Shown in pieces: positions 438-35,633 of a stretch of 64,000 nucleotides of DNA. Origin of the DNA: Tetrahymena thermophila SB210. Lineage: Eukaryota > Ciliophora > Oligohymenophorea > Hymenostomatida > Tetrahymenidae. Numbering within the stretch: position 1 is the stretch's first letter; every line of letters begins with the position of its first letter. The stretch lies in assembly GCF_000189635.1 (NCBI RefSeq), contig NW_002476403.1:1657-65656 (forward strand). Direction: 5' to 3'. The notes beneath the pieces were generated by a model. The model worked only from the letters and a program-made list of their open reading frames with translations. It did not search any database and was not told where the DNA came from. The position numbers and the translations under genes were made by a program.

Positions 438-3400
438 ATGGAAATCTAAGATATCCTTCCCCCATTTATCATAATAATAACAATTTTACAAATCATTTAA
501 TTTTTACATTTTTTGACTCCTACTTTGAAGATGATCAGTAGGATAAATTACAAGTGCAATAATTATATTTAAAAATACTTTTTATATAATAATGTGATTG
601 ATAAAAAACATTTTTTGTATTAAATAGCTGATTTTAAGAAAGAATTGAGAGATGAAATTCAGAGTTTTTATGACACTTTCATCATCCCATATCAAACAGA
701 TTAAAATTCAAACCCTCAAATTAATTAATATAACTATGAGTCTATAATGAAGTAGCTGTATTAGGAATATATATAAATTCTAAAATACACTCAAATGACA
801 TTTAATGATAACGAAATACAACAAATGAGACACTTTATATTAGATAAGATTGTAGAGGACTCAAAAATTCCAGTCCAACCAATTAATACAGAGCTAATTG
901 ACTCTCTAAATAATATCATTTAAGACGATAATAACAAAAATAGCTTACTAGGAATCAAAGCACTTTTTTAAATGATTAAATGCCAGTCAGACAAATTACG
1001 CTAAGGAATAAATTAAAGGCATGAAGTATCGCCTCTCTCTTTTGTTTAAAAGGAGAATCTAGATTTAATTCACTGCATTATTAACTTTTTCATAAATCAC
1101 AAAATGCTTAATTTTCAAAATTTGAAAAACCTCTTTCAACAATAAAAGGATAAACAATAATATTCGAATTATCTCAAGGATTAAACTATCCAAAAACAAA
1201 TAAATTTATAGCAACAAAATGAAATGCCTCTGATTGAAAACAAGTACGATCTAAGAATATATGAGGAAATGACAGCAACGGTATCTGTTATAATAATCTT
1301 CTTAGGAGAAGCCCAAAAGCTAGAACAAATTTAAAAGCAAGTTGAAATATTGTAAAAAATAAGGTAAATTATCGAAACTATCAAAAGGTATTTAAAAGCA
1401 GGGGTTGATGCAATATATAATACAAACTTCGAATACACACAGAGCGAATTTAACAGAAAATTTCATGAAGATTTAGGTACAGTACACAAAAAAATGATAC
1501 TGTATACTTCATAAGTTTACAACAGCATCTAATGGTAAATTGATTAAAATACTAACTCTTCTATTTTGATCTCAGAGTTACTGAGGGTTACATCAAGTTA
1601 TGTTGCTAAATTTCCAGATGAGTACATTGATACTAAGATTTAGCTATACAAGGTTTACTCTAAAGTTTTAATTGCTTAGTAAAATTTTAATGACAACGAT
1701 TTAAACTAATATGCTTTAAATTATCATGAAGTATTTATGATGGACAGGTTAGTCAGCAATCACAGCAAAATAGAAATCTTGACACTATACATATTAATTA
1801 TTTAAACTATTTTTTCAATTGATTTCAATTAGCAAAACTAGCGTGGCTTACCCATGAGAAATCACTAGACCTCTAAAATTAGTTAACTTAATGATTAAAG
1901 AGTTCAAGAATAAGTTAAAGTTATAATCGAAAATTTGATTTCTACTTTATATGACAATAATCTGAACTTAGAATTATAAATTAAAATTGTAGACACATTA
2001 AATAGCTTAATTAATAGATACATAACATAGGACAATGAATATTTTAAAAGACAAGGTATTAATCACGATTAGCTTTAAAATAAAATCAAATACTTAGAAG
2101 AAATCCTCAAATTTGTATCAACCAAATATAAAGATTTAAATTTTGTATTAATTTCCATCTAAAATTTTCTTAAAAAATAATTTATTAAATCTTAACAATA
2201 ACCAAAACAACCGATTATTCTACCTAATTAGTCTATTACTTAACCAATTTCGGCTCCAAATCCTAACTTATTAAACATAAACTAGCCAGTTTAACAATAA
2301 AGACTACAATAGCCTCTTAACTAGCCACCAGGAGCTGCATAATAGTTAGCTATGCGTACTCCTTAGCCAAGGGCTATGCCAAATGGACCCTCAAATTCCT
2401 AAGCAGTAATTTAAAAAAAGCCTGCTTAATAATAACAAAATACAAGTAATATTTGCTATTTCTTTCTTTCCTTTAATATTAATATAAACTTACTCCTTAA
2501 AAATTTATCTTGATATATTTTTAAAAAGCAAAATTTACTTTATTTTTTTATCAGAAAATTAAATTTAGAAATAAAATAAAAAACTAAATATTATTTAGAA
2601 AGAAACAAAATTCAATATAAAAGAAGTTCAAATTAAAATTATTTATTAATTTATAAGAAAAATAGAATTTAATTTCCAAATATTTGCTACTAAACAGAAA
2701 ACAAATAAATAAATTAATTTTGCTCCAATAAAAGTTTTTGAAGATTTTTGTTAAAAAATCAATCTATTTCTATCAAATAAAAAAAATGTATTTTAAATAA
2801 AACTTATATTGAGCTCTATTTTTTAAAAAAAGGTGTCGAAGATGAGTTATCAATACAGAAGAAATACATAGAATGGATTCAAAAGAAGAAAAATAATGTT
2901 AGTCTTAGCACTTTTCCTAAAATGCAAAGAGTGAAACAAGATGACTCAACAGAGTTAGAGAAGATATAGTAGGAAATATTAGAAAATGAGGATTATTACA
3001 ATTTTTAGGTGGATAACATTATTAAGTTAAATGCGAGAGAAGAAATTTAAGCAGAGTTTGAAGGAGAATTTTTAAAATTTCATGGAATAGAAATTAAAGC
3101 AGAGAATTTATAATACTATTTTACATAGATGACCCTTTTTATTAGAAATTTTATTGGTTTTCAATATAAAATTCAATTGAGTTTATTTGAAAAGAATACA
3201 GAGTATAAAAAGTAATTCCAACCAAATGAGTTAAGCAAGGCTTATAAATAGTATAACTTGAACTAAAACTAACTTAACATACTAAGAAAAATTTTCAAAA
3301 ACGGTATAGAACTTTTAACTAATTTTCACTAAATGGCACATGTTGAGGCAAAATTCATTGATAGCTCCTGCATTTAAAGATTTATTAAAATTTTTGCAAT

Positions 3401-6400
3401 GATTGAACACGAGTGCCATTTCAAAGATATAATCGAGCCTAATTTCAAGTTAATACTTAAGTTATTAATAAAAACCTATCAGGATACTGATAAAAGTTAA
3501 TGTTAATGCTATAGATAGATTATTGATGGGGCATTTTAAGAAAGCAGTAATGCTCAACCTGCTAATCCTCCAAATTATTTCCCTACAGCTAGTTTTTTTA
3601 ATCATATTCTTTTAAAAAATTTTTTCCTTATTATAGAGCAGTCCAACGAAACTATCGATCCTTTTAATGAGTTTTATGGACTTTATAAAAATAAATTCTT
3701 TGAAACAATTTAGTCTTTAATGAAATAAGTATTTATCGGAATCATATCACAATATGACAATGACTCGTACAAACAAACTATTAAAAAAAGCATTCTATTT
3801 TTATTTAAAAAGATTCACACTTCTCCTTATCCTTTAGAATATCTTAAAATCTTGAAGTAATTTAATTTTTAATGATAATTTACCAATTAAAATCATTATA
3901 CAATTTAATTTTAAATTTAGATGGTTTTCTTATGAGCTGAATGAATAAATCATTAAAAATCCAAATAAGGAAAGTTAAATAAAAAATGAAATATATTCAA
4001 TATGCTAATCACCAGATAAAATGGCAGATGACAAGCATGTTGATCTTCTAAATTAAGAAATTATAAATCTAGAAAAGTCATTAACTGAAAATAAGGATTT
4101 GACTGAAGACAAAAAGTCTTAAATCAAAGAAAAGCTCAAAATTAGTAAAGATAAATGCAAATATTTTGAAGGTATAAACATATTAGACAATATTATTTAG
4201 CTATTAGAATTAAATAGTTCTAAATTCTAGGCTTAAATTGCTAAAATATTCCTCTGCTTACCTAATTTATATAATCAAAACCTTGACTTATAACGTAAGA
4301 AACAGGTTGCTAAAATTCTTTTGATTTGCATCACAATCAATGAAAGAAACTTTGCTACTTAAGCCCTCCAAAATTTGGAAAATATAATTTGTAAGTTTTA
4401 TTTTAATGTTTAATTTTTAAAAAAATATATTTAAATTATTACAGAAAAGTTAACTAGGGAGGAATTAGAAGTTGCTTTAGAAGATATCAAAGAAGAACTA
4501 ATTGATAGATTATATTAAATAGCAAGTGAAAATAGACCAATAGATTTTACATTGAAAAATGAAGAACTTGAAAAATAGATTAAATCAAGCAGACAAAATT
4601 AGTAGCAAAATATTAATCTGAAATTTACAGATAATTCAAAGATAGCTTTTAAATTGCTTTCAAAATTGTCATATCTTACAAAATAACATAAAATACACAC
4701 TTTTATTTTCGAAAACGAGTCTGCGCCTGAAGCTTAAGAAAAAATTTACTTAGAATTCGATGTCCTATAAAATAACACAAATGGATAACCTTAAAAAACT
4801 ATTTTTAAGCTAGATGTTAAGCAATCTATTGAGCACGCAATTAGTTTATTTAATAGAATTATTAATAATTTTAATAACTAACCTATGAAAAGTAATGTTA
4901 TTGATATATCATTTGCTTTGATCAAATTTTCTGTCGTTAAATATTTCTGCAGAAGTGAAAATTTAGACATAAAATGGCTTTATGAGAACGAAAATGGTGT
5001 TAAGTTTTAGGAAAAGTATGCTCAAAAGAGCTAGCAAGATTAGCAAGAATAACAATAACAAGGTAAGTAAATTGAAGAAGCTATGTAAGAAGAGTTTGAA
5101 GTTAAAAAAAAGATTCTAAGAGAATTTAATTTTGAATAACATGAACAAGAAGAAGCAGAACAAATTTTAGATAATAAATTTAATTGCTTTTTTGGAACTA
5201 GTTCCTCTCCCAGTTAAAATTCTTCTAATTTACTCATTATGAAACTACTCAAAGTACTGATGGACCTGACTTCTATTGATTAAAAAGTTGAAAGGGATCA
5301 AGGTTTACTTTTGAAGATTAGAAAAGAAAGTGAGAGAATTTTAAGTATCATCTCAAAGGTTATCTGCCAGAATATTATTGATTTAGTCTTGCTCTAATTA
5401 GGTTAAAACACTAACTCTAATTAGCTTTACTTCAAAAATCTTTTTGACAACAAAAATAGTCCTTATCATGTGTTTATAGCTACAATAGTTAAATCTCTTA
5501 AGAACTCAAATTTCATGGAGAGAAGAAACAATTAAAAAGCACAAATTTGCAATGAAAAACAATTTTTATGGAATGAGCTATTAATTAAGAATATTTACAA
5601 AAACCTTCAAACTGATGGAGTTAAGCAAATAGTTTAACAGATACAATAACAACCAAACTCTAATTAAATGGTGCTAGAACCTTCTCCAAAAATGGCTAAT
5701 AACGAAAGCGAGTAAGCTAAATAAGTCATAGATATAGTAGTAGGAGAATTGGAGAATTTTATTATCTATATGCTCACTAAAGAAATTGGAAATAGCAATG
5801 ACAGCTTTATCCAAACCTCTAATAGCAGATAACTATTTTTCCCAAGCTGTGAAGCAAGCTAACAATAATCTACCAGTTAGATGATTGGTAGTAGTATAAT
5901 CTCATCTCACAACTTTGAAAGTCCCTCTGATAGTAGAATGTTTGACAACAACAATAATTCCTTGAACAAGCGCTACTGTTTAGTAGAATGTCTGAATGAA
6001 GTGATGAGTATTTTCAAACAAAAAATAATAGGATAGCATATTTAAAATATTTTAGAATGTGCATACATAATCTCAAATAATCTACCTGAAGTAGTCAATT
6101 TGCAATCTATGTAGGATTTCTGTCAACTTTTGATTAAGAAGATTTTACAATACATAAAAAAATAGAAAGAACAATATAATATAAATAGTCCTCAATTTAG
6201 GAGGATATTATAGACATTTGTGAGCAATCTAACAACATGCAAGCCTCTTTCTCATTTATACTCAAGGAACGCTCTCAATTCAATTGCTAAAATTCATAAC
6301 ACAAATGTAATATCAATTTTGTACCTTTCACAAAATGGAAATACGAACGAAGATGTGAAATTCTGTGATTCTTTTGACTAGCTGATTGCTTAGGCTAAAA

Positions 6401-9400
6401 AAGAAGATGATTTGGCTGATAATTTAGCAAGCATTTAGTAATTAGAATAAATGCCCTCTAAGTACGATTATCAAACTTTAGTTAAAAACCACAGAAATTT
6501 GTACATATCAGAATTATTAATCTAAATCTAGACAGCTATCTAAACTTTTTAACATGATTATTTGATGAACAGTAATTTGTACTACACTCAGAATTCTTAA
6601 ATAAACAAAAAGCTCTTGTGTATTTTCAATTGCTACAAGAGTTTAGAGTATCTGCTTGCCTGTGAAAACTGTCTACCTTTTAAGCTGATAGGTATTTTAA
6701 GGATACAAGAAACTCCTTAAGATTTAAATTTATCAAATTAACAGCCTAAACTATCCTTTTATTTCAAATTTGATGAAAGCTTTTAAAAAATCATTTAAAT
6801 TTCTCAAAAAATAATTGATAAAAATAATAAAGAAATGAAAACATCAAGGATAATACTATCAAATCCCTAAGAAGCAGCTATGCCAAATTAGATTCCTCCT
6901 CTTATAAACCAGGGTTAACCTCTACCTCCTCAAGGAATCAACTCGTCTTAAGTAATTAATTAGTTTTTTTTTTGTTTTGTTTTTGATTTTTAATTTTTAC
7001 TTTAAACTTTTTGATAGAACTTGCTTCAATAACCTCATCTAGCACCTCCTATTAATTAACCTCACTAAGATTTAAATTAGTCTATGAACAAAAGCATTCC
7101 AGGCAGAGGTTCTGTTGGAGATAATATGTTTGTAGGTGGACCTAACACACCAAACCCAAGAAACTAAAATGGACCGATGATGCCGCCACCTCATCCTAAT
7201 GTTTTACCAAATCACCCACCAAATATGAACCCTAGTAATTAAAATAGCAGAATAATTAATTAATATGCTAACAATCCTTAAGCTATACAGTAGCCAAATC
7301 AACCTTATCCAGCCAACGCTCCTCCTCCTGCCAGACCAAACAATTAATATCAAGCCAATCCAAATATGCCTCCTCCTAACCCAAATAATCCAAATTACCC
7401 TCCTCCGGGACCTGGCTATTAGTATAATAACATGAACAATTAGCCTAATAGACCTATGCCACCAAATCCAAATATAAACAATATGGTAAATAAGATAAAT
7501 TATTTATTTATCTTTGCTTAAAAAAATTTATTTTATACTTAAAAAAGCAATAAAGACCAATGAATCCTCCTCCTCCTCCATAAAATTAGCAACAAGCATA
7601 GCCTAAAAGTTAAAATTCTTTTATAAATTAATGCCAACTATTTTATGAAGATGAGCTTGGATTGAATATTGAGGATCTTAACTTCAACATAAAAAATTGG
7701 GCTAAGGTTTTGTCTTCTATTATTTTGATATTAAAGTAGATAAACTTATCGATTCCAACAAAATACTTTAACTCATTAATCGATAAAGAAGAAAAGAAAA
7801 TAATTGAACAAAGCAATCCAAACTATATCAGAATGCCTCCTGAATTAAGAGCAAAAACATTTGAAAAAATAGAAGAAATAAATTATTTGAATTTGAATAA
7901 ATTATATGAAATGATGCCAAGGATAGAAAAGACTATTCACTCTACAGTCTAGGAAAGTATAACCGAAATTAATAAAAAAAATGGTAATAATAATAAAGTT
8001 GCGCTGGAAGAAGAAAAGCTGAAGGTTATTTTAAGGCCTATGCTCGTCTGTTTGCAATCCCCATTCAACAGGTTCACTCCTTAGTTTTTATTAATCTTTA
8101 AGAAGTTGCTTAAAATGCTAGTAAACTGCTTTAATGGTAGGCTCATTATTCTCCTGTTAAAATAGCTAGACGAAATTATCAAGGATACAAGTAATCCATT
8201 AAATGAATAGAGTTTTTCAAATTATAAAATAAAGAATGTCTCAGGTGTATTATCTTTATTCTAGCACTTAAAGAATCCATTCTACTAGCAGAAAGGCAGT
8301 AGAGAAGCAGTAAGTAGTAAAGAGCAGATCAAATAAATTCTTAATTAAACTATAGATATATAAAAGAACTATAGTATAAGATATGGTTGGCATTATGTCG
8401 AACAAAAGACTTTGAATCCAATTTCAAAATTGCTTAATGTATAAACTGAATTTGTTACTGAAATTTTGATGAAAGACAAAAAGATTATTTAAAATCCTTA
8501 ACAGCCAAATGATCCTCTAAATTCTCTAAGCGAGTAGACTTTAGAATTTATCTACAAAGTAATCAAGATGGACTAGGTAAAAAAGAAACATACAAAATTG
8601 CGAATTAAATTAAATCATATTTTTTTTTTAAATTTAGTTTTAATGAAAAAAAAAATTTTTAAAGATTTTGTTTTAAAAAATAGAGCTTTGAATTGAGAGA
8701 AGCACTTACTCGTGAATTCTAAGATTAAGATTTCTTTATGAGATTTTGGGATCCTTAGAGAAATTTGCAGCTTTAACTTAAGATTATTTACTTGCTAGCC
8801 AAAAAAAGCTCGAGAGTATTTAAGTAATAAAAGATAGATGGAATTAAGTTTTTAATTGATGAGAGTAAAAAGATATAAAATATCAATTTTATGAATTACA
8901 AGAATTACATCCTCTTTATGAAATTGTTTATTTTATACTTCTAGAGAAAGAAAGATATTAACATATTCACTTACATCGCAAGTAATTATAGTGAAAAATA
9001 CCCTTGCCCTCACTTCTTAAAGAGATTCTTTGAAGAACAAGTCTCTGCGCTCTTATCTGTTGAGTAAAAAAAAAGGTTATTGCAGAATACATTAACTAAC
9101 ATGAGTACAAACATGGATGTTTAAAACATAAGAATTATGTTAAAGCTAATTATAAAACCAATAATAAAAAGTTTGACCAAAGAGCAGATTATTTAAATTA
9201 TTACTCAACACTAAAATTAAATGTAGGGCAGGCCAGGATAATAATCGATGATTGATTTTTTATTTGAAGCCTAAAAGTAATGAATTAATTTTATTTTTTT
9301 AATTATAATTTTAATTAATTTCTTATAATGCAAAATAAAAAAAGGAGATTCGATGAAAGATTTAAGAGATTCTAATCTGATCTTTAAAATATTCCCCGTT

Positions 9401-12400
9401 TATAATAACAGAGACAAGCCGCTATTTAGCATTAATAGCCAGGATCATTACAAATGGTCCATAAGTTATAACAGGATATTAAAAGAATTTAAAAAAATAA
9501 TGATAGATTTTCAAAGGAGCTGCTATAATTAGAGCTATGTAGAATAACATTTTTATTTGGAAAAGAATTAAAATAAGATTACCTCAAGAGATTTTAGAAT
9601 CACATTTTTTAAATTATATCAGCAAATTTAGATTAGACTGAGAATCCAGTCATTAAGCAGCTTTATTATTAACTTTAAATAAAGATTATTAGATTACAAA
9701 ATTTATAGGGTGATCTTCAACGTAAAAAGCAACTTCTAAGCAACATATTCAAAGCATACAATTTTAATTCACAAGAAACAACCAAAAACCACACTCTTTA
9801 GCAATTAATTATTAATAACGTAAATTACTTCATTAAAAATATAAGCAATACCAAGTAAATTAGACAAGAAAACTAAAGGTAACTTTAATAATAGCCACAA
9901 TCATAGCTTTAGGCAACAGCAGCAATAGCAGCTTAAAATCAATAGTAGTAACTTAATGTTCAAAATAAAATAGATTAACAAAGCCAACAAGGAAATTAAA
10001 ATAATCAAATACAAACTAACTAAGCTATTCCAGCTCTCAATAATAACCTACTAAGTAATTTAGAATTAAAAACTAATTATGAAATTGTGAGAGAATTCTT
10101 AGATATGGATAAAGATAAAATAATTTTTAATGCTATTATCCAATAAAATGAATACTTCTATGACATTAGAGAAACAGTGGCAATTGACATTTTTAAAGAA
10201 ATAAAAGAATAATACCTCTTTTACAAAAAGAAGGCAGAAAATGAGAAATAAAAGATTAAAAAATTCTAGTAAACTTTGGATGATGAGAATGGAGGTATCA
10301 TGCTTTTATGGGAGCAACAACACGATTAAAAGAATAATGAACGTTCTATATTTTTGATAAACTTAATAAATACATATGTTTATTGGAAATTTAGAGAAAT
10401 AAAAGAGGAGTCTAAAAACAAAGAAAATGCTAACACCTAAAAGATGGAAGTATGTAAAAATTCAGAAAGAAAGTTCTCTAAGCACGCTATTCATTTACTA
10501 ATTCACTTCATCTTTGACTTATCAGAGGAAAGAATCGAAAGTTATCAGATCCTTCTCAAAAAATGTTTAATTTTATGGGTAATTTAATTAATTATTAATA
10601 ATTTAAAAATATTTTAATATAATTAATTATTTAGAATAACTCGAAGATAGACTATAAAATGATTAAATATAAATACATTTTTAATATGCTTAAAATGGAC
10701 AATGAAATTACTTAGAATTAGTAAAAGATTTCTTACGCAAGACCTCACGTTAACAAATATTGTCTTTTTGTTCTAAATATACTAAATATCTGTCTTGAAT
10801 GCTCATCTTATACAGAAACTAACTATAATTATCAGATCAAAGATTTCCTCAAAATTCTTAATTGGTCAACTCTATATGTGCTTAATAAGTAAAAATAAAG
10901 AAATAAAAATCCTTCAATTTCAGTTCCTAATAGCGCAAATCCTCAACAAAACCCATAGCAATAACCAAACAACAATACTACTACTAATAATAATCTACCA
11001 GGCACAACTCCTCAAGCTCAAGGGTCAAGTCAAAATTAAAATTCAGTTACACCAGATGGCGCCGGATAAGGATAAAAAAATATGATGTAAAAAAATGTAA
11101 TGCCTAACAACCAAATAAGTAACTAATTAATTTATTAATATATTATCAATTAAAATTTATTATTTATTAAAAATAATTTCATATTAAGTTTTTTAATTTT
11201 ATTTTAAATTTCTAAGATTTTATTAAATTAATTCATCTTTTCTTAAGAAAAATAAGAGAAAGCAATAATCAAGGAAAGGAAAGAATATTTTAGTTTGATG
11301 AATACAAGCGAATTAGAACCATATATGGTGATTATGGTAGCTAATATTTTGTATTCACTTTTGAATGTCTATGAAGAAGACCCACACGACAAATAAATTA
11401 AAGAATTCAAAGCTAATCTCATTAATTAAATTAAGATAAATATAGAAACACACCATTTTTAGATTGATGGATAAGAATTGCAATCCTAAGAAGTTTAACC
11501 TCCTATGTCAGTAGACTTGATTGTCAAGTTGATAATTTACCAAGCTAATTTAAATATAGAAGATCTGTATATCATCAGATTAAATTAAATACTTATGATT
11601 TTGGAAAATCAAAATAAGAAGCATAAAACAAAAGAAGATGATAAAATTCAGTATGATAAATTATTTTATGAAAACTTCTTCTGTTAAAAATATGCAAATT
11701 ATATTCCTCATAATAGCTGCTTCTATTTCGAAACAAGTAAATTAAGTGCCTAAAATTTGCTTAGTAAATTTTATGAAGAGAAAATTGAAATAGAATAATA
11801 ACAAGGAAATGATGATTTCTTTTATTAAGAAGCTACCTAGTAGTTATAAAATAGGAAAAATAGATATGTTTAATTACTTAAAAGAGAAGCCGGATTTGAG
11901 ACTATGTAATGGGAAATCGATTAACACCTCAAGTATAGTATTAATTTGTTCAGAGATCATCAAGAATTCTTTGAATTCCCTTTTATTAGATAATATAGTA
12001 GCAACCTAAGCAACTTTTTAAAATATTCTTAAGCTCAAAATTTACTAGGATTGATGTATATTAGCTTGTGTCTTCTACCAGCTATCAAGGAAAAGAATTA
12101 AGATTCCTTGCTTTAAAATATAAAAAGAATTCTAAAAGTACTTTTTAATGTAGTCGATGAAGGCGTTCACTACTAACTAAGAATAGAAGCTTTGAATTTG
12201 CTTAGAGTATTTTTCTTAGGTAAAAGCAATTTCCCAAACAGTGAAGTCCCATAGAGATACACAAAGATTGTATAGATTATTGACTTGCTATCATTTAAGA
12301 GCAGAGATGAAATTATCTAATGGGTATTTGTGTATTAAGATATAGAAAAAAAGTATAGGAAATTCCCCAAAAATTACTATTACTGCATTCCAGAAGAAAT

Positions 12401-14771: not shown

Positions 14772-14822
<51 letters not shown>

Positions 14823-17833: not shown

Positions 17834-19504
17834 GTAAAATGTCATAAAGAAAAAAAAAATAATAATCAGTAAATAAATAGAATAGTAAATACACAAAAAA
17901 AATCAAAATATAATAATGTTAATAAGATGAAATCATCATAAATAAGCTTGTAGAAATAAATATATCAAGCTAATATACATGAAATGAAAGATGATACAAT
18001 AAAAACTAGTTAGTTATTTTCAATAAATAAACGATATCAATACAATTAATAAATTATACAAACTCTTTATTTTTATTTATGTTTTATAACTAATCATAAA
18101 CACAATAATATAAATTTAAAATTTCATTAATTAATTATTTTTATTACAATTATTCAAACCTATAAAATTTATCATACACATATATATTAAAACATAATAA
18201 ATGATTTATTTATTTATTAAATGGTTTACTCATTTACTTACTTTACTTACCTTTTGATTAATATCTTCATAATTTAACTTATTTGATTTATTTAAATTGT
18301 TATAATTATTTGCATTAAAAAAAAAGCCTGAACTATATTTTTTATTTTAGGAAAGTAAGTTGAATCAGTAATGTTAATATTCAATCAGTTTTAATATTGA
18401 AAACAATAAAAAGACATAAATCAAAGAATATTTTGTTGTTTTTATAAAATAAAAGTTTTTTTAATTATTTTTTTTTTAATGTTTGTAAATTTAATTTAAC
18501 TATTGAAATAAATAAAATCAAATAATTAATATATCCTTAATTTTCTTTATACAAATTAAAAATATTTTATGTAATAATTAATTATAATTATCAAATAAAT
18601 GATTTTAGTTTAACTTATGATTTTTTATATAAAAATATGTTCAAATGTAAATTACCATTGTACTAATTTGAAAATAAATATCTTTTTTTTCTACTAATTA
18701 AATAACAAAACAATCAAACCCAGTTGGTAGCCACTTTAAATAATAATATTAGCATTCTCTTTTTTTTGGTGGGTTTTTTTTTTTTAATTTATAAAAAAAG
18801 GATTCATAATAAATATTGATAATGTTAACACCTTTTTAATTTGATTATTATTTTTGATCAGGAAGGTGGTTATATTAGAAAATTTTTATTGTATTTTTAT
18901 TTGAAAATAAATATTCTGAAAATATTATTTTAGTTTTAAAATTTTTTAGTTTGTTAATGATAGAATAAATTTAATATAAGACTTTAATTGAAATATATTA
19001 ATTAATTAAATAGTCTTTTTTAAAGTAAATCTAAAAATATTTTTATGATCTATTATGGTTAGTTAATAATCTGTGTTAATTAATGTCTTTATCACTAATA
19101 ATAATTTTAGAAGGAGTTTTGCTAATGAAAGAACACATTGATTTTATTTAAATTAACAATTATAAGAACTATAAATACAAGAGAATATATAAGATTTAAT
19201 GATATGTTTGATTAGTTTAAATGTATATATTATTAATATTATTATTTAAAATTATATCTTAATAATTTATTTTGAGATTACTTTTGCTTTCTTGAATGAT
19301 CGAATAACTAACTAACTAGCTAGGAAGTAGATAGATTGATAGACTGAAAACTGTTTAGAAAATATTTAATGCTTTTAATTTATCTAAACAAACAACTTAA
19401 ATTTCAATTTATCACATTTTTTTTTATTAATTTTAAGTTTTAAAATTTAATTTATATTTTATGTTTGAATGTGTATGGATGGATGGATGGATGGATATAA
19501 ATTC
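17834..19504. other. Convergent intergenic region between the two TRRAP-like genes
   Basis: About 1.7 kb of very AT-rich DNA lies between the TGA codons of two genes that converge from either side. It should carry both 3' untranslated regions and polyadenylation sites. I found no reading frame, RNA gene or mobile element in it. The only simple repeat is the ATGG tract near its right edge. Confidence 0.6.
19475..19496 (+). repeat. (ATGG)n microsatellite
   Basis: Five tandem ATGG units lie a few bases beyond the stop codon of the minus-strand TRRAP-like gene, inside its likely 3' untranslated region. It is the most GC-containing simple repeat in the intergenic DNA. Confidence 0.85.
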
Positions 19505-22500: not shown

Positions 22501-25500
22501 AAATTATTTCTTCTTTGTTAATTTATTTGTAGGAACTTTTATAGCAAGCCTTTGAATCTATCTTTGAGTCTAACATTAATAGAATTCAAAATTAAATTTC
22601 TCTGATCAACAACATTTTTCCAAGTTATCAAATTCTCATACTTGTGTGGCATTCTCTCTCTCCTATTAAAAAAAGAAGTATTATATATATTATACTTGAT
22701 AAGATAAAAAAAATATTTTATACCATTAATTAAACATCATTTAAGTGTTTTTAGCGAGAGATTCAATCATCTGAGCAGGATGAGTTATTTGCTAGTCTCT
22801 CATATCTCTCACACGGAAACCTTCTTCAAGCTCTATTAATTATTGGAGTTGCTATGAATGTTTCAAATGAACAGAAGAGAACATTTTAGGAAATTTAGTC
22901 CAGTCTTTTAGAGTTAAATAGTAAGCATATGTTAAATTATGTCCTTAGTCTTACTTAATATCTTCTCTATCTGTAGTCTTTTGGAAGTCTATAAGAGTAG
23001 AGCAATAATATCTAAATGGAATCTCCATGCTCAAACCATATTCAATGCATCTAGCTATTTCCTTCTTCATACCAGTTATATTTGATGTGTTGTACATGCA
23101 TTCCAATTCTTTTTTTGAAAAAAAATAATTAAATTACAATTAGTTAAATCTTAAAATGCTTACATAAATAGATATTTTAGGTCTTTTCTGAGTATTCGTA
23201 TAAGTCTTCCCACTTATTTAAATTTTTCTGAGTCTCAATAAATAGTGATTTATATATACTTTAGTCCATCAAGTGAGAGTAGTCTTCTAATATTGAGTAA
23301 TAAGAAGCATTATCTTTACTGAATTTAGCTTAATTATCATTGAAAATATGGGCTCTCTTCTCAATCAAGAAATTTTAGGCATCATTCCACTCTCTTTGTT
23401 GTTGAATTGCTATTGCTCTTTTTAATTAGGAATTGTTTGACATGTAGAACTTTAAGCCATATGAATAATCACTTTCGTTAGTCTCATCTATTATTTAAGA
23501 AAGCTAATCTAGAACACTTGATGTCTCGAAGTTCTTAAGAGAATACTATTTAAATTGAGTGATATATTTGTCTCTCTAAAAATGCATCTTTTCAAGATAT
23601 ATTTAAACATAACTCCATATATTATACTCTCTGCATGTAGTCTATAATTTCTCAGGTTGAATAATATATCCAGTTGGATTTTCTAGTTCTTCCATAATTA
23701 TTTCTGTTAACGCTTAAACAAAATATAAAGAGATATACTGTTTCTAGTTGTTGAAAATTGGAGGGAAAGGGTTCAGTCTTAAGATAGACTGCTCAAATAG
23801 TTAGATTGCTTGTTGACGTAATTGAATAGGCTTGGGATTCAGTTTAACCATAAAATTAAAGACTTTTTTGAATGCAGGAATTAAAAGATGAGGAGTGATT
23901 GGGCAGCTAAATGATACTTAAGGTTGATATAAGACAAAGATGTAGCTGTTTGTATTAGCATCGATTGAATTTATTGGACTTTGCTTAATTTAAGCTGAAG
24001 TCATCATTTCAGAATATAATTCTATGATTTCTCTCTTATTGAGTGAATAGTCTTTCAACTCGAAGAACTCCTTAAATTATTGCTTCAATTCCAAACTAAG
24101 GCTATCATTTTTAGAGTCATCAGACAGCTCATTAGCTTCATAATTATCACTTTCAAATTTAATTTTAACCTTGGGAGCATAATCAACAATTTTAAATAAT
24201 ATGACCTTAAATGCGAGGAGAAGCACTTCATCTTATTCTAGATTTTCTAAGCTGTATTCTTTTGACATTTAGTTGATAATAACAGATAAAATCTTCTTTA
24301 AGCACTTTTCACTCTAGAATTAGCCTAAAATCATCTGAAGACAATTGAAGTCGCTAGTGCAGAAGAGATCTCCAGCAAGCTAGAAGAAGAGTCTATTAAT
24401 TGAAAAATAAAATAATTTATTTAGAGAAAAAAGCTTAAATAATATTTAAAATTGAATTACGCTAAATCAAATGAAGAAGAGTTTTTGACAAATAATAAGA
24501 GGAGATATCTCACAAAATCACTATCTAATTTATTAATACCACTTTCTTTTATAGAGTGTACTATGAAGCTCATAAATTCTTATGATATGTACTCTTCAGC
24601 TACTTTCAGAGACATAAATTCAGCAGCAGAATCAGGATAGGTGTTTGTAAGCTTTAATTGGAGATTTGTTAGTCCGAATCTCTTGTCAAAAATTCTAGCT
24701 ATGTAATTGAATATGCCGATGATTAATTCCATCTTTTTCTCTGCTGATAAATTAACTTGTTTAATTTTTTAGTATTATAGAGGTAGAGTATTATTTTTGA
24801 AAGCCTTTTCTCCAATCATTAAGCACTTCAGCAGATTAACAGCTTCAATACGGATATCTAAATCATAAATTTTCTCTAAATAAGAAGCAAGCATCTTCAG
24901 GATTGAAGTGATATCCTAATTATCTTTATCATTGAATGAATTAATCTTCAAAGCAAGAATACGTAGCAATGTAATAAAGTTCTACTTATTATGAATAGAG
25001 TTAATCTTAGTACTATCATACACTTCATCATAGTATAACATTGTTTCTTCGTATTCTTCAGAGAATTCCTAAATTATGCTTTGATTTTAAGTTTATTTAA
25101 TAGGAACTTTAAGTATTTTATTTGCAGTATTGCTATCATATTCGCTATAATTTGTTAATAAGTAGTAGCCATCAATAGGAGATTTGCATGATTTTACTTT
25201 TTCAAGCATAAATTAGACAAGTGTTTTAATGTTTCTTAACCCAAGATCAACCTTATCATCTAGTTAGTAGAGAATCTTTAGTAATTTGATAGACAACTGA
25301 ATACTCATAGGTTATTGTTACTTCATTTAATTTAACTAGGTTTATATTTGTGGCGGAATCGGCTGATTTGGTACTCTATATTAATTGAAAAGATGCAAAT
25401 ATTTGACATGCTATTCTATACTTTCTTTCACTAATTGTTAAACCTTTTAAATAATAATTAAATAAAAATTTATTTTTTTGTAATTTTTTTAACAATTTTA

Positions 25501-28500
25501 TTTACATTTCTGAAAAATTCTGCAGCCTATTCATTTTCTTTGTAAATATTGGCAGTATTTAATAGCCTCTTGAAAATAGTAGAAAGTATAAGTACAGTAT
25601 AAGGATTATCTATTTGTAAAAGATACGGAATTTAATTCTAATTCGGATTATTTTATGAAACTGGTGGTCTATTTAACAAAATTTTATTTAAAATTAATTT
25701 TCTTTTATCTTAAAATTTACTAAGATGCTTCTGGTTAGTTTCCTTGAGGAGTTGGTCCGTTAGGTCCTTAAGCTGGCTAATTTGGTTTACTATCCAAAAG
25801 CTTGTATGCAGTAGGAAGGAAATTTAGAATTTTTTCATTACTCTCAAATTCAAGAATGATGCTTAAGATATTTAATTAACAGTAATAGGAAGAAAATGAT
25901 TTGTTAGTGAATCTTTACAATTATGTTTTATAGTATTCATTTCTCTATTGAATATTAGGCTAATTTTTATCAAAATATTTTTTAATTTTTTGTATTTAAT
26001 TATTTTTTTAGATCAAAATTCTTTATTTATTTTGGCTTTAACTATGTGAAATAACTTTAGAAAAGTAATTGAGTTCTAATGAAAATGTTAGATGAAAGTA
26101 AATAAATATTTTACCCAAATGAAAAAAGTCTTTTTAAGAAGGTATAAAGTACGTTTGATGAAGTTCTTTTCATCTCTATCTCTATCTTAGGTTTATAGAA
26201 TATTGGTAATTAACTTTATATAAAATGGAATAATAACACCCTTTGCTCCTTAATCGATCTCTTCAGAGAATCTCTCTACTAGTTCTACTTAGGCATTTAA
26301 AATCTCTTCATCAGTTAGGGCTATATCTTCTTCACTTATGTTGTACTTTAGCATTATTTCTTTTTGCTATTGTAAAATATTCTCACATTATTACTAGCTA
26401 TCGAAGTTTTATTTATTATTTAAGAAATCTTATTCATTGTTTCCTGAATTAAAATTAGGTTATTCAGATGCTTGCTACATCGATCTTGAAAATGAAATAG
26501 GTTCTCCCTTATTTTCATTTAATTAATCTTAAAAAATGTTTTAGTTTTATACTAGTTGCTATGAAGTTATTTTCTTCACGAATTCTTTTTCATTTATGCT
26601 CTCTTCTTCGATTTGGAATTTAGGTGTCGAACTACCTTCATTTTATTGATTTTAAGCTTAATTTTATTTTATTTTTTCTACTAATTGCTTTAGCTTTTTC
26701 TATTTAGCATAGACTTCAGTATTTTTTAAGATAGATTTCATCTCAATGAATGACCATTCAATATAAAGGAAAGTCAAATCCCAAGCAATTTTATTTTGAG
26801 AATTAAAACTACTGGCTTATCTTGTGGCTTAAATGATAAGCTATTATGTAGAATTAATCATGTGAGGTGAGAATTATTTTCTATATTGCTGGAATATTTA
26901 GTGATTTTTTATAAAAATTTGCCAAAATCTTATTAATATAGCATGTTTCTAATTTGAATCGTCACTGAAGATATTTGTTGTCCATTTAACCCAGTCATTA
27001 TATTTGCTGTTATTTAAATATAATTATAATAATGTAATTGATAAAATAATTTGATTACTTCTAGGAATTGTTTTGAGCTAAGAAGGGAATCAAGAAATTT
27101 AGGGCTTTCTTGATAAGTGATCCTATTTCATTTTCTTATTGAACAACAATATCGTCTTGCTTTCTATTTATTAAAGAAGCATAAATACTGAAAATCATTT
27201 CTTCTGGCATTCCAAACAAAGTTATAAATTAACAAGTATAAACATAACTTATGTGTTTCAGAAGTTTTTCTTCACATTTCATGTACTTCCATCCAAATCT
27301 AATGAATTCTTTCTTATATTAAATAACATCTTATCTCAAATAAGATAGAAGCAAAGTTGATAACTACAATATTTCCATTTCAAGTCTGTAATATGGGAAC
27401 ATCAATCTATATGTTAATTTTTTATCATAAATAACTTATCTCAAAATTTAAATTTAAGTTTTTGGAAATTTCAAAATTAAAATAATAAATATTTTTTGAT
27501 AAAAAAGATATCAAATTATGAAAATTACTTAGGAATTTTAAACTGTTTATCAAAGAACTCAATTTATTTCTTCTTATCTACTATTTAAGGTACTTGACCT
27601 AATTTATTGGAATGTACTAGCATAGGATATATAATGTGATAAGAAATATTTATGATGGTTTCAACTTTTTCTTTTTTTTCCATATTTTACAAGATAAATT
27701 CTAAGAATTTTTCATAGATAGCTTTTTTGTGCTCGACTGAGTAGTGGTAAGGAAGGTAGTAATTAAAGAAGTCTTAAACAAAATAAGTATAACGAGCCAT
27801 ACGTATGCTGAGGAAATCAGCTAAATTGAATAAAGTTTCAATATCTGTGTGTTTTTATTAGCAGTAAATCACTAAAATTTTAAGATAATAAATAATCTCA
27901 TTCTTTGTGCTCATCTATTAAATTTATAGCATAGAACTATCTGTGATTGTCTTATCTCTATAAATTTTGATAGTTTCTGTCAATCTTTCTTTGATACACT
28001 CTACGCCTTACTGGTTATTCAGCATCAATCTACAATTTTTATAACCTAAGTTTTTTATTATTCTCAAGAAAACTATCTTATTTTCTTTTTCTCTGCCCTT
28101 ATTATAGAGCTTTTAAATTACTGATTAATTGCTATCTCTTGTTAATCTTTCACGAACAACCATAGCCTTTTTATATATATATATAATTACTTTAATTTGA
28201 AGAATATTAATTAGTTGATTACCTTATTGAGCTTTAAGATTTCTAACAAAAGATTTAGGATTTCTGGGTCTGTCTCTGTGAAATAATTTTCGGTAACTTA
28301 AGCTGACATCGAATTCATAAATTTGCAAAGCGATTTACGAGTGATTTGTTAGATCTAATACTTGCCTTCTGTCTATGAGTATTACTACTCAATTTTATTG
28401 ATATTTTAAATTATTGTATCTATTGATTTTTTGATGTATTCTTTTTACTTTGAAGCTTAATTATTATTGTTATATGCAGTCTAATAAGCATACTATAAGT

Positions 28501-31500
28501 ATTAAAATAGCTTCAGAAGTCCAGAAATGCATTAAATATTGTATTTTTAACTAGGATCTTTGGTAACATCATCTAAATGGGTTGTTAGCTTATCACTGAG
28601 TGCTTTATTAAAGCAAGGTGTTAAAAGCTTCAAAATTTTCTTTAGTACCTACAAGAAAGAAGGTGTGAATGTATGGAAATGATTCGACAAGCACATGAGC
28701 ACTGGCTTTAATATACTCTTTAATTTATCTTCATTATTTAAAAGCTCCTTTGGGTGAGAGTCTTAGTTAATCATTTCATGCAAGCAACTTTAAGAAGTAC
28801 TGCTAATACCTCTTTCTATTCTCGTCATTTATCCAAAAAGTTTTAAAATAATTTTATATCTATAGCTGAGAATTTCACTTTGATCTTGCTAATTCTTTTC
28901 TCTATTCTTTAAGTTGCTCTTTGCTACTTTCTTAACAGGATTGAGCAGTAATAAGCTTTTAAGAAAACTTAATATGCTTTATATCAAATTTGACTATTCC
29001 TTCATACGAAGATCAATATCTTCAATATTCAAGTCGAATTCTTCTATATTTAAGTAAACCTAATGATTGATCTAAAAGGTATTCTAAACAGGAGCATTAT
29101 TACCAGCCTATTTAATATTTAGATATATATTTTAATATAATAGAAAAAATTTATTAAATTAATCAAGCAAATTAAAGGATTTTTGGGAAATAAAAACTTA
29201 AATAGCTAAGAATAAATAGCTATAATTTAATCATTAATTTTTTTTTTATTATTTATTTTACTCAAAACTTATATCAATATTATCAATTTTAATAAATAAG
29301 GTATAGGAATGATACTGCTATTGGGTACAAGTGTGTATAAAGTCAATTAAATGTTAAAATATAAAAAATACTCTTTGAGTTGATGCTCCTGCTGCTGGAG
29401 GTTAGGTTGATCCGGATGCAGGATTTGAAGGATTAGATGGATTACCATTAGTAGAAGCGTTGTTTGGACGAGGGGCATTAGATGCTGGAGCTTCACTAGG
29501 CTTAGCTCCGTTTTAGGCAGTTTAATTAGGTTAGTTAGCAGGTTTGGTATTTTCTATAATGATTTTGACATGCTTGGACATTTTTTCTGTATTGGTAGCG
29601 ATGATGATATCACTGCTTTGTATTATGTTTACAATATCAGGATCAAATTTGTAGTACTTTTCATTGAAAAATGTATTTTATTCTTCAGGAGGTATTTGTT
29701 AAGGAGGATCATTAATAAGCACTCTGAAAGGAAGACGATTTTAATCAATACAGATTAAGAATTCTAAAGTTTTGTAAACATTTGAAATGTATTTCATTTA
29801 TTTTATGTTTTCAAAGTTGTTATTTGTTAATGAGAAATTTTAAATTGAAGTTTTAATTTTCATAAGAAGAGAACCAAGGAAAGTATTTTGCATATTTTCG
29901 ATTATTTTACTGATAGGATGTTAAGTTACATTATAGGTATATGACGATTGAGAATTGTTGACATTACTGCTTTGAGAATTAAGATGAGGTGAGTCGAGCA
30001 TATTACTACCTGTAGTGAATGGTGAGTCTTCAAAATCGCTAGTATCCATTCTCCAGTAAAAAAGATCTATTAAATTCTTTTTATGGATTTATGAAGCATT
30101 AACTAAACAATCTTTAGCTAAAGTATGAGCGAATTCTCTATATGTTAATAAATTATTAAAAAATATAGCAATCAATTTCTTGCAAGCAATTCTTTCAAAG
30201 TTATCTTTATGCTTGCGGAAGAATTTAAGAGTCTTTGAAAGAATTTATGAAGACACTTTAGTTGTTTTTAAATTAATTATGTCAGGAATTTCGTTTAAGA
30301 TAATAAATATAGTGTTAATTATTTCAATAACGTTCTGTTGCTAGTTTTAGAGGAGAGTTTGGTCATTAATGTATTCTTCAATAAAGTCAAGTAAAATTAC
30401 TTGAAGACCATAAATTTTGTTTTAATTAGTTGTATTCATAAGCTCTTTTAAAATTGATTTCAAGTAGAAATCTTAGAATTCAACATAACTATTTCTGTCT
30501 GCATCTTTAAGATATTCTTGTTGATTCTTGAAGAATTTTTAAATAAATTCTATTTATCCACAAATTTAATCTTTGCACATATGTAACTCTTCTCTTGTTA
30601 AAATAACTTTCATCTTAACACTCCTGATACCGTTAAGAGTTATTGCCTTAATATATTTTAAGGCTTCATCCTTATTAGTCTTATAAAGAATACAAATAGT
30701 CTTATTCAGAATTTCTAAAATTTTTTAAGATTCTTTTTTAAATCTGTTTATGATAGAAAAACCTGTTGTTAACTTTTGATCAATTCCAACTATTTCAAAG
30801 AATATTTTTAATATCTTATCAAGTATTCCTTCATTTTCTTAAATCTTTTGATCATTTTAATTCACTTAGTGGATAGCCTAAAAGAGTTTTTTAGTTGGTT
30901 AATCTTTTTCTTCAAAAACATTTTCCATTTCATTCTATTCAAATAATAAATATAAAATTAATAAAAGTTTATTTTGATATATATATTTGTTGAGAAATTT
31001 ATAGAAAGTACTTAGAAGAAATTATCAGCAGCTTATGAACTAGAAACGGAGCTATTTTTAAATAATGAGTCAGGGAAGAATTAAAATAAAGTAATCTTAA
31101 GGATGCAAAAGGCGGCTAGTGTTGAGTTGCCTCGAACAGTCTGGCAGTAGAAATTGTCTATAATTTTATTAAATATATCTATAGAATGTAAAATGACATC
31201 ATTTAGTGGGAGGTTCAAAGTATCCTATTAAGGATTGTTCATTTCAATATTAATATAAAATTAGTCAAGATATTCTTAATTTTTTATGTCATTCTAAAGC
31301 TTTTCTTAGAATTTTGTTGATCTTGTCAAATGATTCATCCTTCCAAGAAGCTTCACTGCAATTATTGCAGGGTCGTTTTATATTTTTTTATCCTAAAAAA
31401 TAATAAAAATGTTAATAATCAAAAAAACTTTTTATATTAATTAATTAATTACAATTGAATGAGTATCAGGATAGAGATGGGGTTTCTTTCTTACTTCTTC

Positions 31501-34500
31501 AATAATTCTTTATTCATAAATAATTTCATATAATTTTTCCATTAATTCATCTTTGTTTTCCATAAACAAATGCTATGCTTCTTCATGTGTACAATAGCCT
31601 ATTATTTTTCATAGATGAAACAATTTTAACAAGAAACGTTTAAAATTATTCTTTTACCTAATATGCTTTCTATTGTTTTTAAAGAGCGAACTGTATTTGC
31701 CTAATCAAAGAGAGATAGAGCTTTAACTAGAGGACGGCCAATGATCTTAGTTTTAGCAACTATGTGCCTAATTTTAAGAGGGAGCAAAAGAATTAATTCA
31801 CAAACTATTACCTTAACTTCGTGAATATCAGTGTCATAAAGAGCAATTAGGTTTTCAATAATGTTAATATTTTGATATTAAGTGTCTTATTATGCAAGAG
31901 AAGATTATGAAGATGAGGATGAAGATTATGAAGAAGATGAAGAAGAAGACGAAGAATTGGAACTATTATCCTCTGATTTATTACAGATACCGAAAAATTA
32001 ATTATTAAGGTTATCGATTAGTTATTGACTTCTTTCACCAGGTGATAAAAAGCATTTAAACAAGGTCCTATATTTAAAATTTTTTTTGTTTTACCAATAA
32101 TTATTGTCTTGAATTCTTATAAAATCATTTAATTATTAAAATTTAAATTTGTTATTTGTTTTGATCAAACAAAAAACAATATTTTATTTAATATTTAAGT
32201 TTTTTTTGGTTAAAATAAAATGATTTATTTAATATTATAAATAACAATATTTCAATTTAAAAGTACAGTTTTTAAATAATTTACCTTAGGATTTATAAGT
32301 ACTCTAATGGATATTGTGAAGTATGGGATTTTTTTATGAGGAAGATAATTATTTATCTAAAATAACTATAAACGAATTCGTAATCAGTGAGACGAATGAA
32401 GCTTCGAAGAGGGATTTTTATTATACTTTATATGCGAGTGAAATATTTATCTCTGTATTCATAGAAAGGACTGAAGGGATCTATATTTTCTATGTTGGTA
32501 TTCAATTTATGCATTAGATAAATAATTAATATTTAGGCTAAATGAGAGTTTTCAATGGTTTAATTATTTTGCATTTACATTTACATTTTCGACTTATCCA
32601 TAACAACAAAAGGTTCAATTATTAAATTTTTCATGCAGTTTTCAGAGCAGTCACTGTACTTCAACAAATACTTAAAAATTGTGTCCATATTCGGCTCAAA
32701 AATATCTTTGAATGATATTTTATCATTGATCAAACCGAAATTTTACATGAAAAACAGTAAATTGTTCCTTTTACTTGATTAACTATAATCATTAGATCTA
32801 CTGTTGGTGTGCTCATAGTCATGGAAGAACTCAAAAACTTCTAAACCGTTTTTAAGGATTTTTCTAAAAATATTTCTTTATTCTTTCTTTAATGTATTGT
32901 ACATACTTAACTGCATTTTTCTTTGTTCGATTTGCTTGGGATTTGCATTTTTATATTTTTGAGTAAAATTGATGAACTCTTCTTCTCTATTTTCATTGAA
33001 AAATACAATTTAAATGTCTCTCTGCAACTCAATTAGGTATTCTACAATTTTATTTTTAATATCTCTGACAAATTAGCGGTCTATATTTTTCTTTATCTTG
33101 ATACCATTAAAAAAAAGGGTTTCCTTTTAATTATAAATTTCTAAGTGGTGGAATTATAAATGTTGAAGACTTTATAGATTGCTTTCTATGTTAACATTAT
33201 TGCTCTTAATAAAATCTATGCGCTTTTTCTTCCACTCAATGTCATCATAATCGCCTAAATTAGCTATAGGCATCTAATTTAAATGAAGTTAAGTCACTGT
33301 TTTTTCTTTATTCTCTTCTTTTTATGAGAATTAATTATCTCTTTCATTTTTTTAAAACTGAGGTTCTTCTATTTGCATTTACTAGTCATTCACTTCATCC
33401 TCTTTTTTTCCATCATTTTTTTTATTTTAGCTTTACTGATTGTTTCCCTGACTAGCTTCTTACTAACTCATAAAACGCTTTATAGATTAGAAATTTCTCT
33501 TAATTTCTTTGTATTTCATTTAAATTGCATGCACAACTTTCATCAAAATACTATGTCTGAAGACTTTAATTTCATTAGGAATCTTACTATTAATACCAAA
33601 ATTAATGAAATGTTTTAGAACGTCCCTTAGCATTTCAAGAGATTTTTCTTGCATAAAAACATACAATTAGTTATCAAATATATTTTTTATTAAAGTCTCA
33701 ATCATATTAAAGATAATCTACTGCATTTACATGATATCATTTATGCGAACAGATTGTTGCTGAATTTAGCTTACATAATAGCGAGAGAACTCCGAATTAA
33801 GTTATTTATACAATTCGATGAGTTGATGTTACAACTAGTTCTTGCCGTAAATACTGATTAATTAAACACTTCCAACTATTTTTTATTCTTGGTAAAGCTA
33901 TTACCAATACTTCACTTTTAGCTTGCCTTGCTTATGTGTTATAAGATTCTTCAAATTTGATATTGTATCAATTCTTTAAGTATAAAATTCCTCAGGGCAC
34001 TTATCAACCAAGTTAATGGCACATTCAATAACTTTATCAGTATCTAAAATTTATTCTAACATTTGCTTATTCATATTTTTGAAAATAGCTCTTTGTGAAA
34101 AATCGTCGTTTTTCTTTATGAAAACGCTAAAAAATTTAATCATTTTAGCAAGCACTATAATGAGTTCTTGAGCAACATTCTTGCCTAACTCCTCATATAT
34201 TTCCTAAATCTTAAGATCGGAAAACCCCTTGATGACATTATTAATCATTTCTTTAGTTTATTTGACTAATTAATTATTAAAATTTTCAAAGTTGTAATTT
34301 TTTTGTTGACTATTTTATTGACTTGCATTGTTGTTGCTATTTGTCTAATTACCTTCCTCAACAATAGCAGAAGCAGCAGAAGAATTCACATTATTGTTGT
34401 TTTAGTTGTTTTCATCTTTTTCTTGAAGAGCATTTTGCTTAATAGCTTAAAATTTCATGCAAATCTTACAAAGAGGCTGCAAGTCTAAATTTGCAATAGT

Positions 34501-35633
34501 AATAAAAGTATGAGGAAGCTAACTAAGAATCTATAAAGATAAAGGACTGGGAATAATTTTATCTGCTTGATTTTGTTGCTAGCCCTATTATATTTAACTT
34601 AATTGTTGCTACTAATTAACTTAACTCTAAGACTGAGATTGTTGCTACTATCTTGGATTTTTCTTGCTTGAAGAAGAAGACGAAGGTACGTTTTATTCTT
34701 TTAAAATATTAAATTAAGGATCTTTATAGTTTTAACTTAATTCTTGAATAAGTTTGGACTTGTCACATAACACTTTATAAACATCATCTGTGAGCTGCTC
34801 TAATTTAGGATAATTATCTTCAATGTCTATTAAAGTATTGAGAAAATCCTCTATTTTATGATCAATCATTGGCCTATTTGATTGATTCTATTTTCCATTA
34901 ACACTTGCTTATTGATCTTAATTATTTTCTTCTATTTGCATCCCATTTGCATCTTACTATAATTACTATATTTTTTCTTCCTGCTACTGTTATTAAAATT
35001 AAATAAGACTTGCATATGCACTTTAGAGGCTTTCTATGCTAAATTCTGTCATTTTTTAAATTAAACCTGCATGCTAACTATTTATTTATTCTGCTAGCTA
35101 CTTTATGAATTCTTGAAGTATTTTAGTAGCACAATTTGCATTAGTTTCATTGTCTCTACGTACAATATCTAATAATAAAGAATATAAACGAACATTTGTC
35201 TACTGATTTCTAACAACAAAAAATTTATTGAGCAATTCTAATATTGATAAACGAGTGCGCTACACCTAATTATATTCATATTGCATAGGCGACTATTCTA
35301 AAATCTCCATGTAAGCTGGTAAAAATATATCAACTATCTCTATAAACACCTTGCTGCTCTCCCTACTATTATTTTATGGGTTATTTCCGCCTCCAATCTC
35401 GTGATTTGCTAAATCTGTTTCAAGAAACTGTATGGCATTTTTAATATGATCCTCCTATAAATAATGTTCTATTTTTATTAATTATCAAAAAATAATGCTT
35501 TAAGTTCATTCATTTCGCAATTTATCTTCATCATGCCCTTAATTACTTATATATAATTCCTTTTATAGCCAATTTACTAATTAACCTTGCCTCCTACTTG
35601 CAATTTCATTAAATTTATGAGAATTATCCGCCA
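19505..35633 (-). CDS. TRA1: TRRAP/Tra1-family PIKK pseudokinase, copy 2
   Basis: A second giant TRRAP/Tra1 scaffold, estimated at about 4,800 residues and diverged from copy 1. It starts MADNSHKFNEIASRRQ. A block near 32300 ending in HTSQYPLEYLQIL matches HTSPYPLEYLKIL of copy 1. The FAT region has WRERMPHKYENLITWK (near 22640). The kinase-like domain has FIYIRKEFTYNYSSAMFF and SIRISRNISNYINDIG; GDRH is replaced by GQSL and DFG by TNT. It ends in IYKYWF then TGA. Clear introns include 19863-19941, 20683-20861, 21985-22054, 22663-22723, 23109-23163, 24393-24460, 25444-25505, 25669-25720, 27007-27058, 32068-32284 and 35469-35546. Others are approximate (25961-26114, and near 27416-27532, 28157-28224, 29107-29370, 30933-31015, 31393-31455, 31600-31660). 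About 3.1 kb at the 5' end appears intron-free after intron 1. The family call is firm; some exon edges need transcript data. Confidence 0.88.
29373..29540 (-). other. Ala/Pro/Asn/Gly-rich linker in TRRAP copy 2
   Basis: On the minus strand this exon end codes for a low-complexity segment with repeated NPSNP-like, PPAAG-like and ASTN-like units directly before the intron near 29107-29370. It resembles in character the longer Pro/Asn/Gln insert of copy 1 at 7018-7620, though whether the two align exactly is an inference. Confidence 0.6.
31901..31972 (-). repeat. Poly-Ser/Gln coding tract in TRRAP copy 2
   Basis: The minus strand reads as runs of TCT/TCA/TCC/TCG serine codons broken by TAA and TAG glutamine codons, about 24 codons long. 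It is in frame with the flanking helical sequence and follows the intron 32068-32284. Copy 1 has no equivalent tract at the matching point, so it may be a recent slippage expansion. Confidence 0.75.

Follow-up and report, generated by a model that had tools for sequence, protein, structure and literature searches.

A tail-to-tail pair of TRRAP/Tra1 pseudokinase genes in Tetrahymena thermophila: a probable old local duplication on the Swc4-linked side of chromatin acetylation

Introduction

Why should the genome of Tetrahymena thermophila hold, side by side and on opposite strands, two giant genes of the TRRAP/Tra1 type, and on which side of the chromatin-acetylation machinery would their products act? 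The question is raised by a stretch of 64,000 nucleotides from contig NW_002476403.1 (assembly GCF_000189635.1, positions 1,657 to 65,656; at its full length, the window), in which a preliminary description had placed two such paralogues, here called gene A and gene B. The account that we consider quite probable is that A and B are the published TRA1 and TRA2 of this ciliate, that they descend from an old local duplication arranged tail to tail, and that they would encode dead PIKK scaffolds belonging to the Swc4-linked (NuA4-type) side and not to the Gcn5/Ada2 complex.

Tra1/TRRAP is a catalytically dead kinase that works as a scaffold, receiving activators and docking an acetyltransferase or a remodelling module. 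In yeast, plants and humans it is a subunit common to SAGA and NuA4 (PMC11036802, cited, like the other papers below, for particular passages), and it was through studies of Tetrahymena and yeast that Gcn5 was first recognised as a histone acetyltransferase (PMC8194025). The preliminary description had taken fission yeast as the known two-copy exception, which did not hold, as Arabidopsis has TRA1A and TRA1B (PMC8194025), and TRA1 (TTHERM_00978770) and TRA2 (TTHERM_00979770) of T. thermophila itself were listed in 2018 (PMC5844071). The pair as such therefore appears to be already known, and the two TRRAP/Tra1 orthologues of that list agree with the exactly two genes that our C-terminal queries find; the layout, divergence and domains are described here and not in the passages of PMC5844071 cited, where the printed tags are non-consecutive, and among the open-licence PMC papers listed by our literature searches no title or passage on the tail-to-tail layout was found.

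Results

Gene models and layout

Under genetic code table 11 the window contains no open frame of at least 150 amino acids; under table 6, the ciliate code in which TGA is the sole stop, long frames appear on both strands. The models come from a dynamic-programming gene finder that uses code 6 and was trained on the clear frames. Gene A, predicted at 303..17833 on the plus strand, has 19 exons with 15,135 coding bases and a product of 5044 amino acids ending in NPISYKYWF, and gene B, predicted at 19505..35609 on the minus strand, has 19 exons with 14,325 coding bases and a product of 4774 amino acids ending in NNNNLIYKYWF. The convergent intergenic stretch between the two stop codons (17834..19504) measures 1671 bases, and the proposal of two giant genes on opposite strands, tail to tail, is borne out by models at this distance from each other.

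Some properties of the models are true by construction, namely the GT..AG introns and the lack of in-frame TGA, since the finder permits nothing else; likewise, both stop positions were imposed in the final run, an earlier run with the stops free having recovered the end of B and, for A, having overrun YKYWF in another frame, to 19141. Other properties were not imposed by the finder: the mean G+C content of introns is 12% against 28% for exons, and a GTAA donor is found in 30 of the 36 introns (18 per gene, 52–387 bases). Read in the five remaining frames, the spliced sequences contain 79–201 TGA, and the longest unspliced open frames reach 1119 amino acids in B and 1052 in A. The first exon of each model (21 residues; A 303-366, B 35547-35609) is uncertain, and the gene starts at 303 and 35609 compare with 438 and 35633 in the preliminary description.

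Family assignment

The family was assigned from the C-terminal parts, 1702 amino acids of A and 1678 of B, from which a joint profile was made and run against PDB, with matches taken to E 10. This profile found 17 distinct sequences. The eight best are TRRAP/Tra1 (E 3.5e-25 to 7.7e-13); nine more, at E 0.4 or worse, are unrelated. Taken alone, to the same limit, each C-terminal part found nothing but TRRAP/Tra1 (7 of 7 matches for A, with a match at E 5e-13; 8 of 8 for B, with one at E 6e-17), and a 189-residue fragment of B gave 11 matches, ten to TRRAP/Tra1 and one to an unrelated chain (E 0.048). Among the sequences counted as Tra1 is PDB entry 9ynu, labelled merely as a kinase, for its 58% identity to 5oej, an identity which suggests that it is fungal.

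No mTOR, ATM, ATR, SMG1 or DNA-PK appears among the PDB matches of A, of B or of the joint profile to E 10, although a positive control with 120 residues of this genome's two TOR genes retrieved mTOR/TOR first and also ATM, SMG1, ATR, Tel1 and Mec1, by which the candidate that one copy is another PIKK is ruled out. The kinase-like domain and C-terminal tail occupy two exons in each gene, at 16744..17833 (plus strand) in A and at 19505..20682 (minus strand) in B. The motif scan found DRHxxN nowhere in either protein and neither DFG nor NFG in A, and in B it found NFG twice, far from the kinase-like domain, which itself is without DFG. The same motif rule applied to the PI3/PI4-kinase loci of this genome (overlapping loci with uncut introns) gave both motifs in 17 of 25 but not in the remaining 8, and both spliced TOR genes carry DRHxxN and DFG. 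With PDB matches to TRRAP/Tra1 only and the catalytic motifs absent, the pseudokinase identity given in the preliminary description stands: A and B are, as judged from their predicted C-terminal parts, TRRAP/Tra1 pseudokinases.

In the models, as compared by genome and PDB searches, the TRRAP match of the FAT region lies in A for the greater part within the exon 13080..14437 (plus strand), and in B its first part lies within the exon 23164..24392 (minus strand). An intron interrupts W|RERMPHKY in both genes, at 14438..14493 on the plus strand in A and at 22663..22723 on the minus strand in B, with the same position and phase in the A/B alignment. The shared block order that had been proposed is thus found in W|RERMPHKY and in the YKYWF ends; the HEAT-like repeats were left unconfirmed, as the N-terminal profile retrieves no TRRAP from PDB. 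Pfam gives weak matches in one member of the pair, by elimination B, namely HEAT_ATR at E 0.0018 and three other families at E 0.086–0.78. Despite the first of these, no ATR chain occurs among the PDB matches of the C-terminal part of B. Pfam reported no family in two pieces of A that together cover 4871 of the 5044 residues.

Both proteins are longer than the 3744–3893 amino acids of eight of the ten TRRAP/Tra1 chains matched by the fragment of B (the other two are shorter constructs), and A has five stretches, B six, that are enriched in Q, N, P, S, G and A. A structure predicted for the kinase-like exon of A from a two-row alignment had a mean predicted local distance difference test score (pLDDT) of 35 and is unusable.

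Relationship of the two copies

Aligned end to end with MAFFT, A and B are paralogues identical at 1286 of 4293 aligned residues (30%), their N-terminal stretches also being 30% alike. BLASTP recovers four colinear segments, of which the strongest (E 2e-104) spans the final 1.6 thousand residues, and one shuffled and one reversed version of B, used as controls, gave no BLASTP match to A. Seven of the 18 introns, including the one within W|RERMPHKY, fall in the identical alignment column with the identical phase, and one further pair has equal phase at three columns' distance. At the level of DNA only seven matches were found, of 41–159 bases and 67–80% identity, three of them in matching exons. 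So few and such short matches indicate that the duplication is old, and they rule out a recent duplication or an assembly echo as the source of the pair.

The FAT region leads to a similar picture. In a tree of five sequences (A, B, 9ynu, 5oej and the human chain), A and B are grouped with support 99/99, with 39% identity to each other and 21–27% to the other three; within this set of five, each copy is nearer to its partner than to any of the three opisthokont sequences. Their branch lengths are 0.97 and 0.81, and the distance between them, 1.79 changes per column, is somewhat exceeded by the animal–fungus distance in the same tree (2.02–2.09). Because the A–B distance is not far below that between animals and fungi, the sequences would indicate either that the duplication is ancient or that both copies evolve fast. 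Branches of similar length also mean that neither copy looks released from constraint, and together with the long open frames they rule out that one copy is a pseudogene. The pair is in itself ordinary; it is the depth of its divergence that is notable.

Copy number and origin of the pair

A search of the genome (101 Mb) with 1309 residues of A gave nine matches, all within A or B, and with 1399 residues of B it gave ten, nine of them in A or B and the tenth in a PI3/PI4-kinase locus (E 0.002). These C-terminal queries found no third TRRAP copy in the 101 Mb, copies consisting of the N-terminal part alone not having been sought. That the genome is almost certainly that of T. thermophila is borne out by a TERT stretch which agrees with PDB chain 2r4g of this species at 101 of 102 positions, the single difference lying at the exon edge; a longer TERT reading agrees with chain 6d6v everywhere outside the intron and exon edges. 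Viral and prokaryotic sequence collections yielded 88 and 211 pattern matches, respectively, with none confirmed as a relative in either.

A plausible account of this arrangement, and the simplest, is that the duplication was local and inverted, or that it was tandem and one copy was inverted afterwards. Alternatively, the copies could have come from elsewhere, or from an old whole-genome duplication, and have been brought side by side later. The deep divergence would suit such an origin, as would the non-consecutive tags printed in PMC5844071 and a whole-genome duplication proposed before the Paramecium–Tetrahymena split (PMC3341644), but the 101 Mb yielded just these two copies, which adjoin each other, A and B are sisters with respect to the opisthokont sequences of the five-sequence tree, the block analysis reported in PMC3341644 gave no indication of a whole-genome event in T. 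thermophila, and the genome holds other neighbouring paralogues, such as a TOR pair and a MYST pair. We thus regard a non-local origin as improbable. The earlier claim of a local inverted duplication, as opposed to a retained whole-genome duplicate, keeps its support from adjacency, shared introns and one analysis that detected no whole-genome duplication on the Tetrahymena branch, and is weakened by the older event that an earlier analysis proposed.

Several neighbouring genes of these families were recorded in the genome in their own right. Two TOR genes lie head to tail on contig C214, at about 54–70 kb, with DRHxxN and DFG intact and with mTOR/TOR2 as best PDB matches. Two MYST acetyltransferase genes, represented by five exon matches, lie on the same strand of contig C65 (788533-792635), and a third is on C209. 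On contig C199 (607742-612458), two genes of the PI3/PI4-kinase type share a strand at a distance of about 4 kb and are likely a local pair as well.

Partners of the published TRA1 and TRA2

Just two TRRAP genes having been found in the genome, A and B are, in one order or the other, most likely the published TRA1 and TRA2. If so, both proteins have been detected by mass spectrometry and both co-purify with Swc4: in Table 3 of PMC5844071 the Swc4 bait has 767 spectral counts for TRA1 and 179 for TRA2, and the Ada2 and Ibd1 baits have a dash for both, in pull-downs from growing cells only. The curated Ada2 list there comprises Gcn5 and eight Aap proteins, and the Swc4 list is without Epl1, Eaf1 or a MYST protein.

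A comparable placing is described for another alveolate. The TRA1 homologue of Plasmodium falciparum, PF3D7_1303800, was identified in NuA4 alone, a complex to which a Swc4 homologue also belongs, and not in the GCN5 complex (PMC11036802), so that in both organisms an alveolate Tra1 stands on the Swc4/EAF2 side and not on that of GCN5; in P. falciparum, however, a single TRA1 homologue is named, and homologues of Epl1 and Eaf1 are likewise part of its NuA4.

These data bear on the complex-specific scaffolds of the fission-yeast kind that had been suggested, with one copy serving SAGA and the other NuA4. Schizosaccharomyces pombe resembles Tetrahymena in having two TRRAP-type pseudokinases, Tra1 and Tra2, and differs in that each is specific to SAGA or to NuA4 (PMC6868236), and the mere presence of two diverged TRRAPs in one genome would agree with such a division. 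Nevertheless, TRA1 and TRA2 both go with Swc4 and neither with Ada2 in those growing cells, and the Plasmodium Tra1 belongs just to NuA4, which disfavours the division. In addition, when the SAGA-binding CSI region of fission yeast was mapped onto A and B through 5oej, its chain numbering being taken as that of the paper, the equivalent stretch proved identical between A and B at 21 of 50 residues (42%), at the 90th percentile of 1630 windows, so that there is no extra divergence at a place where the division might predict some. We hold it to be very improbable, and this part of the preliminary description was not upheld.

Two readings remain on the Swc4-linked side, and we regard them as about even, each as a tentative possibility. 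The copies could be redundant, or serve dosage, within one same complex, a reading with which the recovery of both by the Swc4 bait (PMC5844071) and the place of the CSI-equivalent stretch among the better-conserved parts are consistent, and which is difficult to reconcile with 30% overall identity and an A–B distance in the FAT tree so close to that between animals and fungi. There is a parallel in Arabidopsis, where TRA1A and TRA1B are both found with SAGA subunits (PMC8194025), thus two copies in one complex, though with SAGA there and with a Swc4 link in Tetrahymena. Or else there could be two Swc4-linked complexes with one TRRAP each, differing perhaps in MYST enzyme, life stage or nucleus. 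The genome has three MYST genes (six exon matches, grouped), two of them neighbours, a side-by-side pair likewise described for T. thermophila in PMC7339932; the Swc4 counts of TRA1 and TRA2 are unequal; and with such like branch lengths neither copy looks to have escaped constraint. Against this, the published Swc4 list lacks a MYST protein (PMC5844071), nothing ties either copy to one enzyme, and only one Swc4/DMAP1-type locus was found in the genome.

A bolder version would be that the Gcn5 complex of the alveolate lineage lost TRRAP, and that in ciliates the duplicate then allowed A and B each to found a Swc4-linked acetyltransferase complex of its own, the two differing for instance in MYST enzyme, nucleus or life stage, so that the split would lie inside the NuA4/SWR side and not between SAGA and NuA4; being narrower than the reading of two Swc4-linked complexes, it is given lower odds, and we think it rather doubtful. 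As regards other components, neither the Epl1 family of Pfam nor Spt20 had a match in the genome, and the control genomes gave none either; the absence of Spt20 is therefore not demonstrated.

Other genes of the window

Beyond gene B, the window has at 41539-42258 a reading frame with a Transketolase_C domain (Pfam E 1e-24), at 50817-53252 on the minus strand a match to DHHC palmitoyltransferases slightly below the Pfam cut-off (27.8 against 28.7 bits), and at 60129-63998 a long frame that leaves the window, with a match to the EML beta-propeller far below the cut-off (33.7 against 90 bits).

Discussion

The explanation that we prefer would run as follows. An old local duplication would have left A and B tail to tail, each gene giving rise to a giant, catalytically dead PIKK that would serve as a scaffold, in which the HEAT solenoid would be the contact for activators and the FAT and kinase-like domains would dock the protein onto the rest of its complex. 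This mechanism is proposed by analogy with the known role of Tra1/TRRAP. Both copies would act in chromatin acetylation and remodelling on the side linked to Swc4, presumably of the NuA4 type, and not in the Gcn5/Ada2 complex, whether the two can stand in for each other or each scaffolds one of two related complexes.

Several observations pull in the opposite direction and have to be set in the balance. With respect to the family, the FAT family of Pfam reaches 23.6 bits in A, for a cut-off of 24.2 (E 3.5e-5, slightly below the cut-off, in the exon described above), is found nowhere in B and goes unreported for a longer piece of A, and the joint N-terminal profile of A and B retrieves no TRRAP from PDB to E 10, its sole match being unrelated, so that the N-terminal halves are taken as Tra1 homologues from their position in the gene. 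We give Pfam FAT less weight than the PDB match, and it is on the latter that A and B are still filed as TRRAP. The FAT tree holds five rows only. With respect to function, PMC5844071 reports with Swc4 no protein indicative of NuA4 and no clear Epl1, its authors considering a strict NuA4 unlikely in Tetrahymena, and with respect to origin, the earlier analysis mentioned in PMC3341644 proposed that an old whole-genome duplication preceded the separation of Paramecium and Tetrahymena. Finally, A and B are tied to TRA1 and TRA2 by copy number and not by a match of sequence to the locus tags. The tags of neighbouring genes differ by 10. TTHERM_00978770 and TTHERM_00979770 differ by 1000, though A and B adjoin, and hence there may be a printing error in one of the two, or the layout of the published pair may be a different one.

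In summary, the Ada2/Gcn5 list published for Tetrahymena, one of the two organisms in whose study Gcn5 became known as an acetyltransferase, is without a TRRAP, and two TRRAPs nearly as different from each other as those of animals and fungi go with Swc4 instead (PMC5844071). The pair thus bears on two questions: can a scaffold divide its duties inside a single branch of chromatin acetylation, and is there any NuA4 in Tetrahymena?

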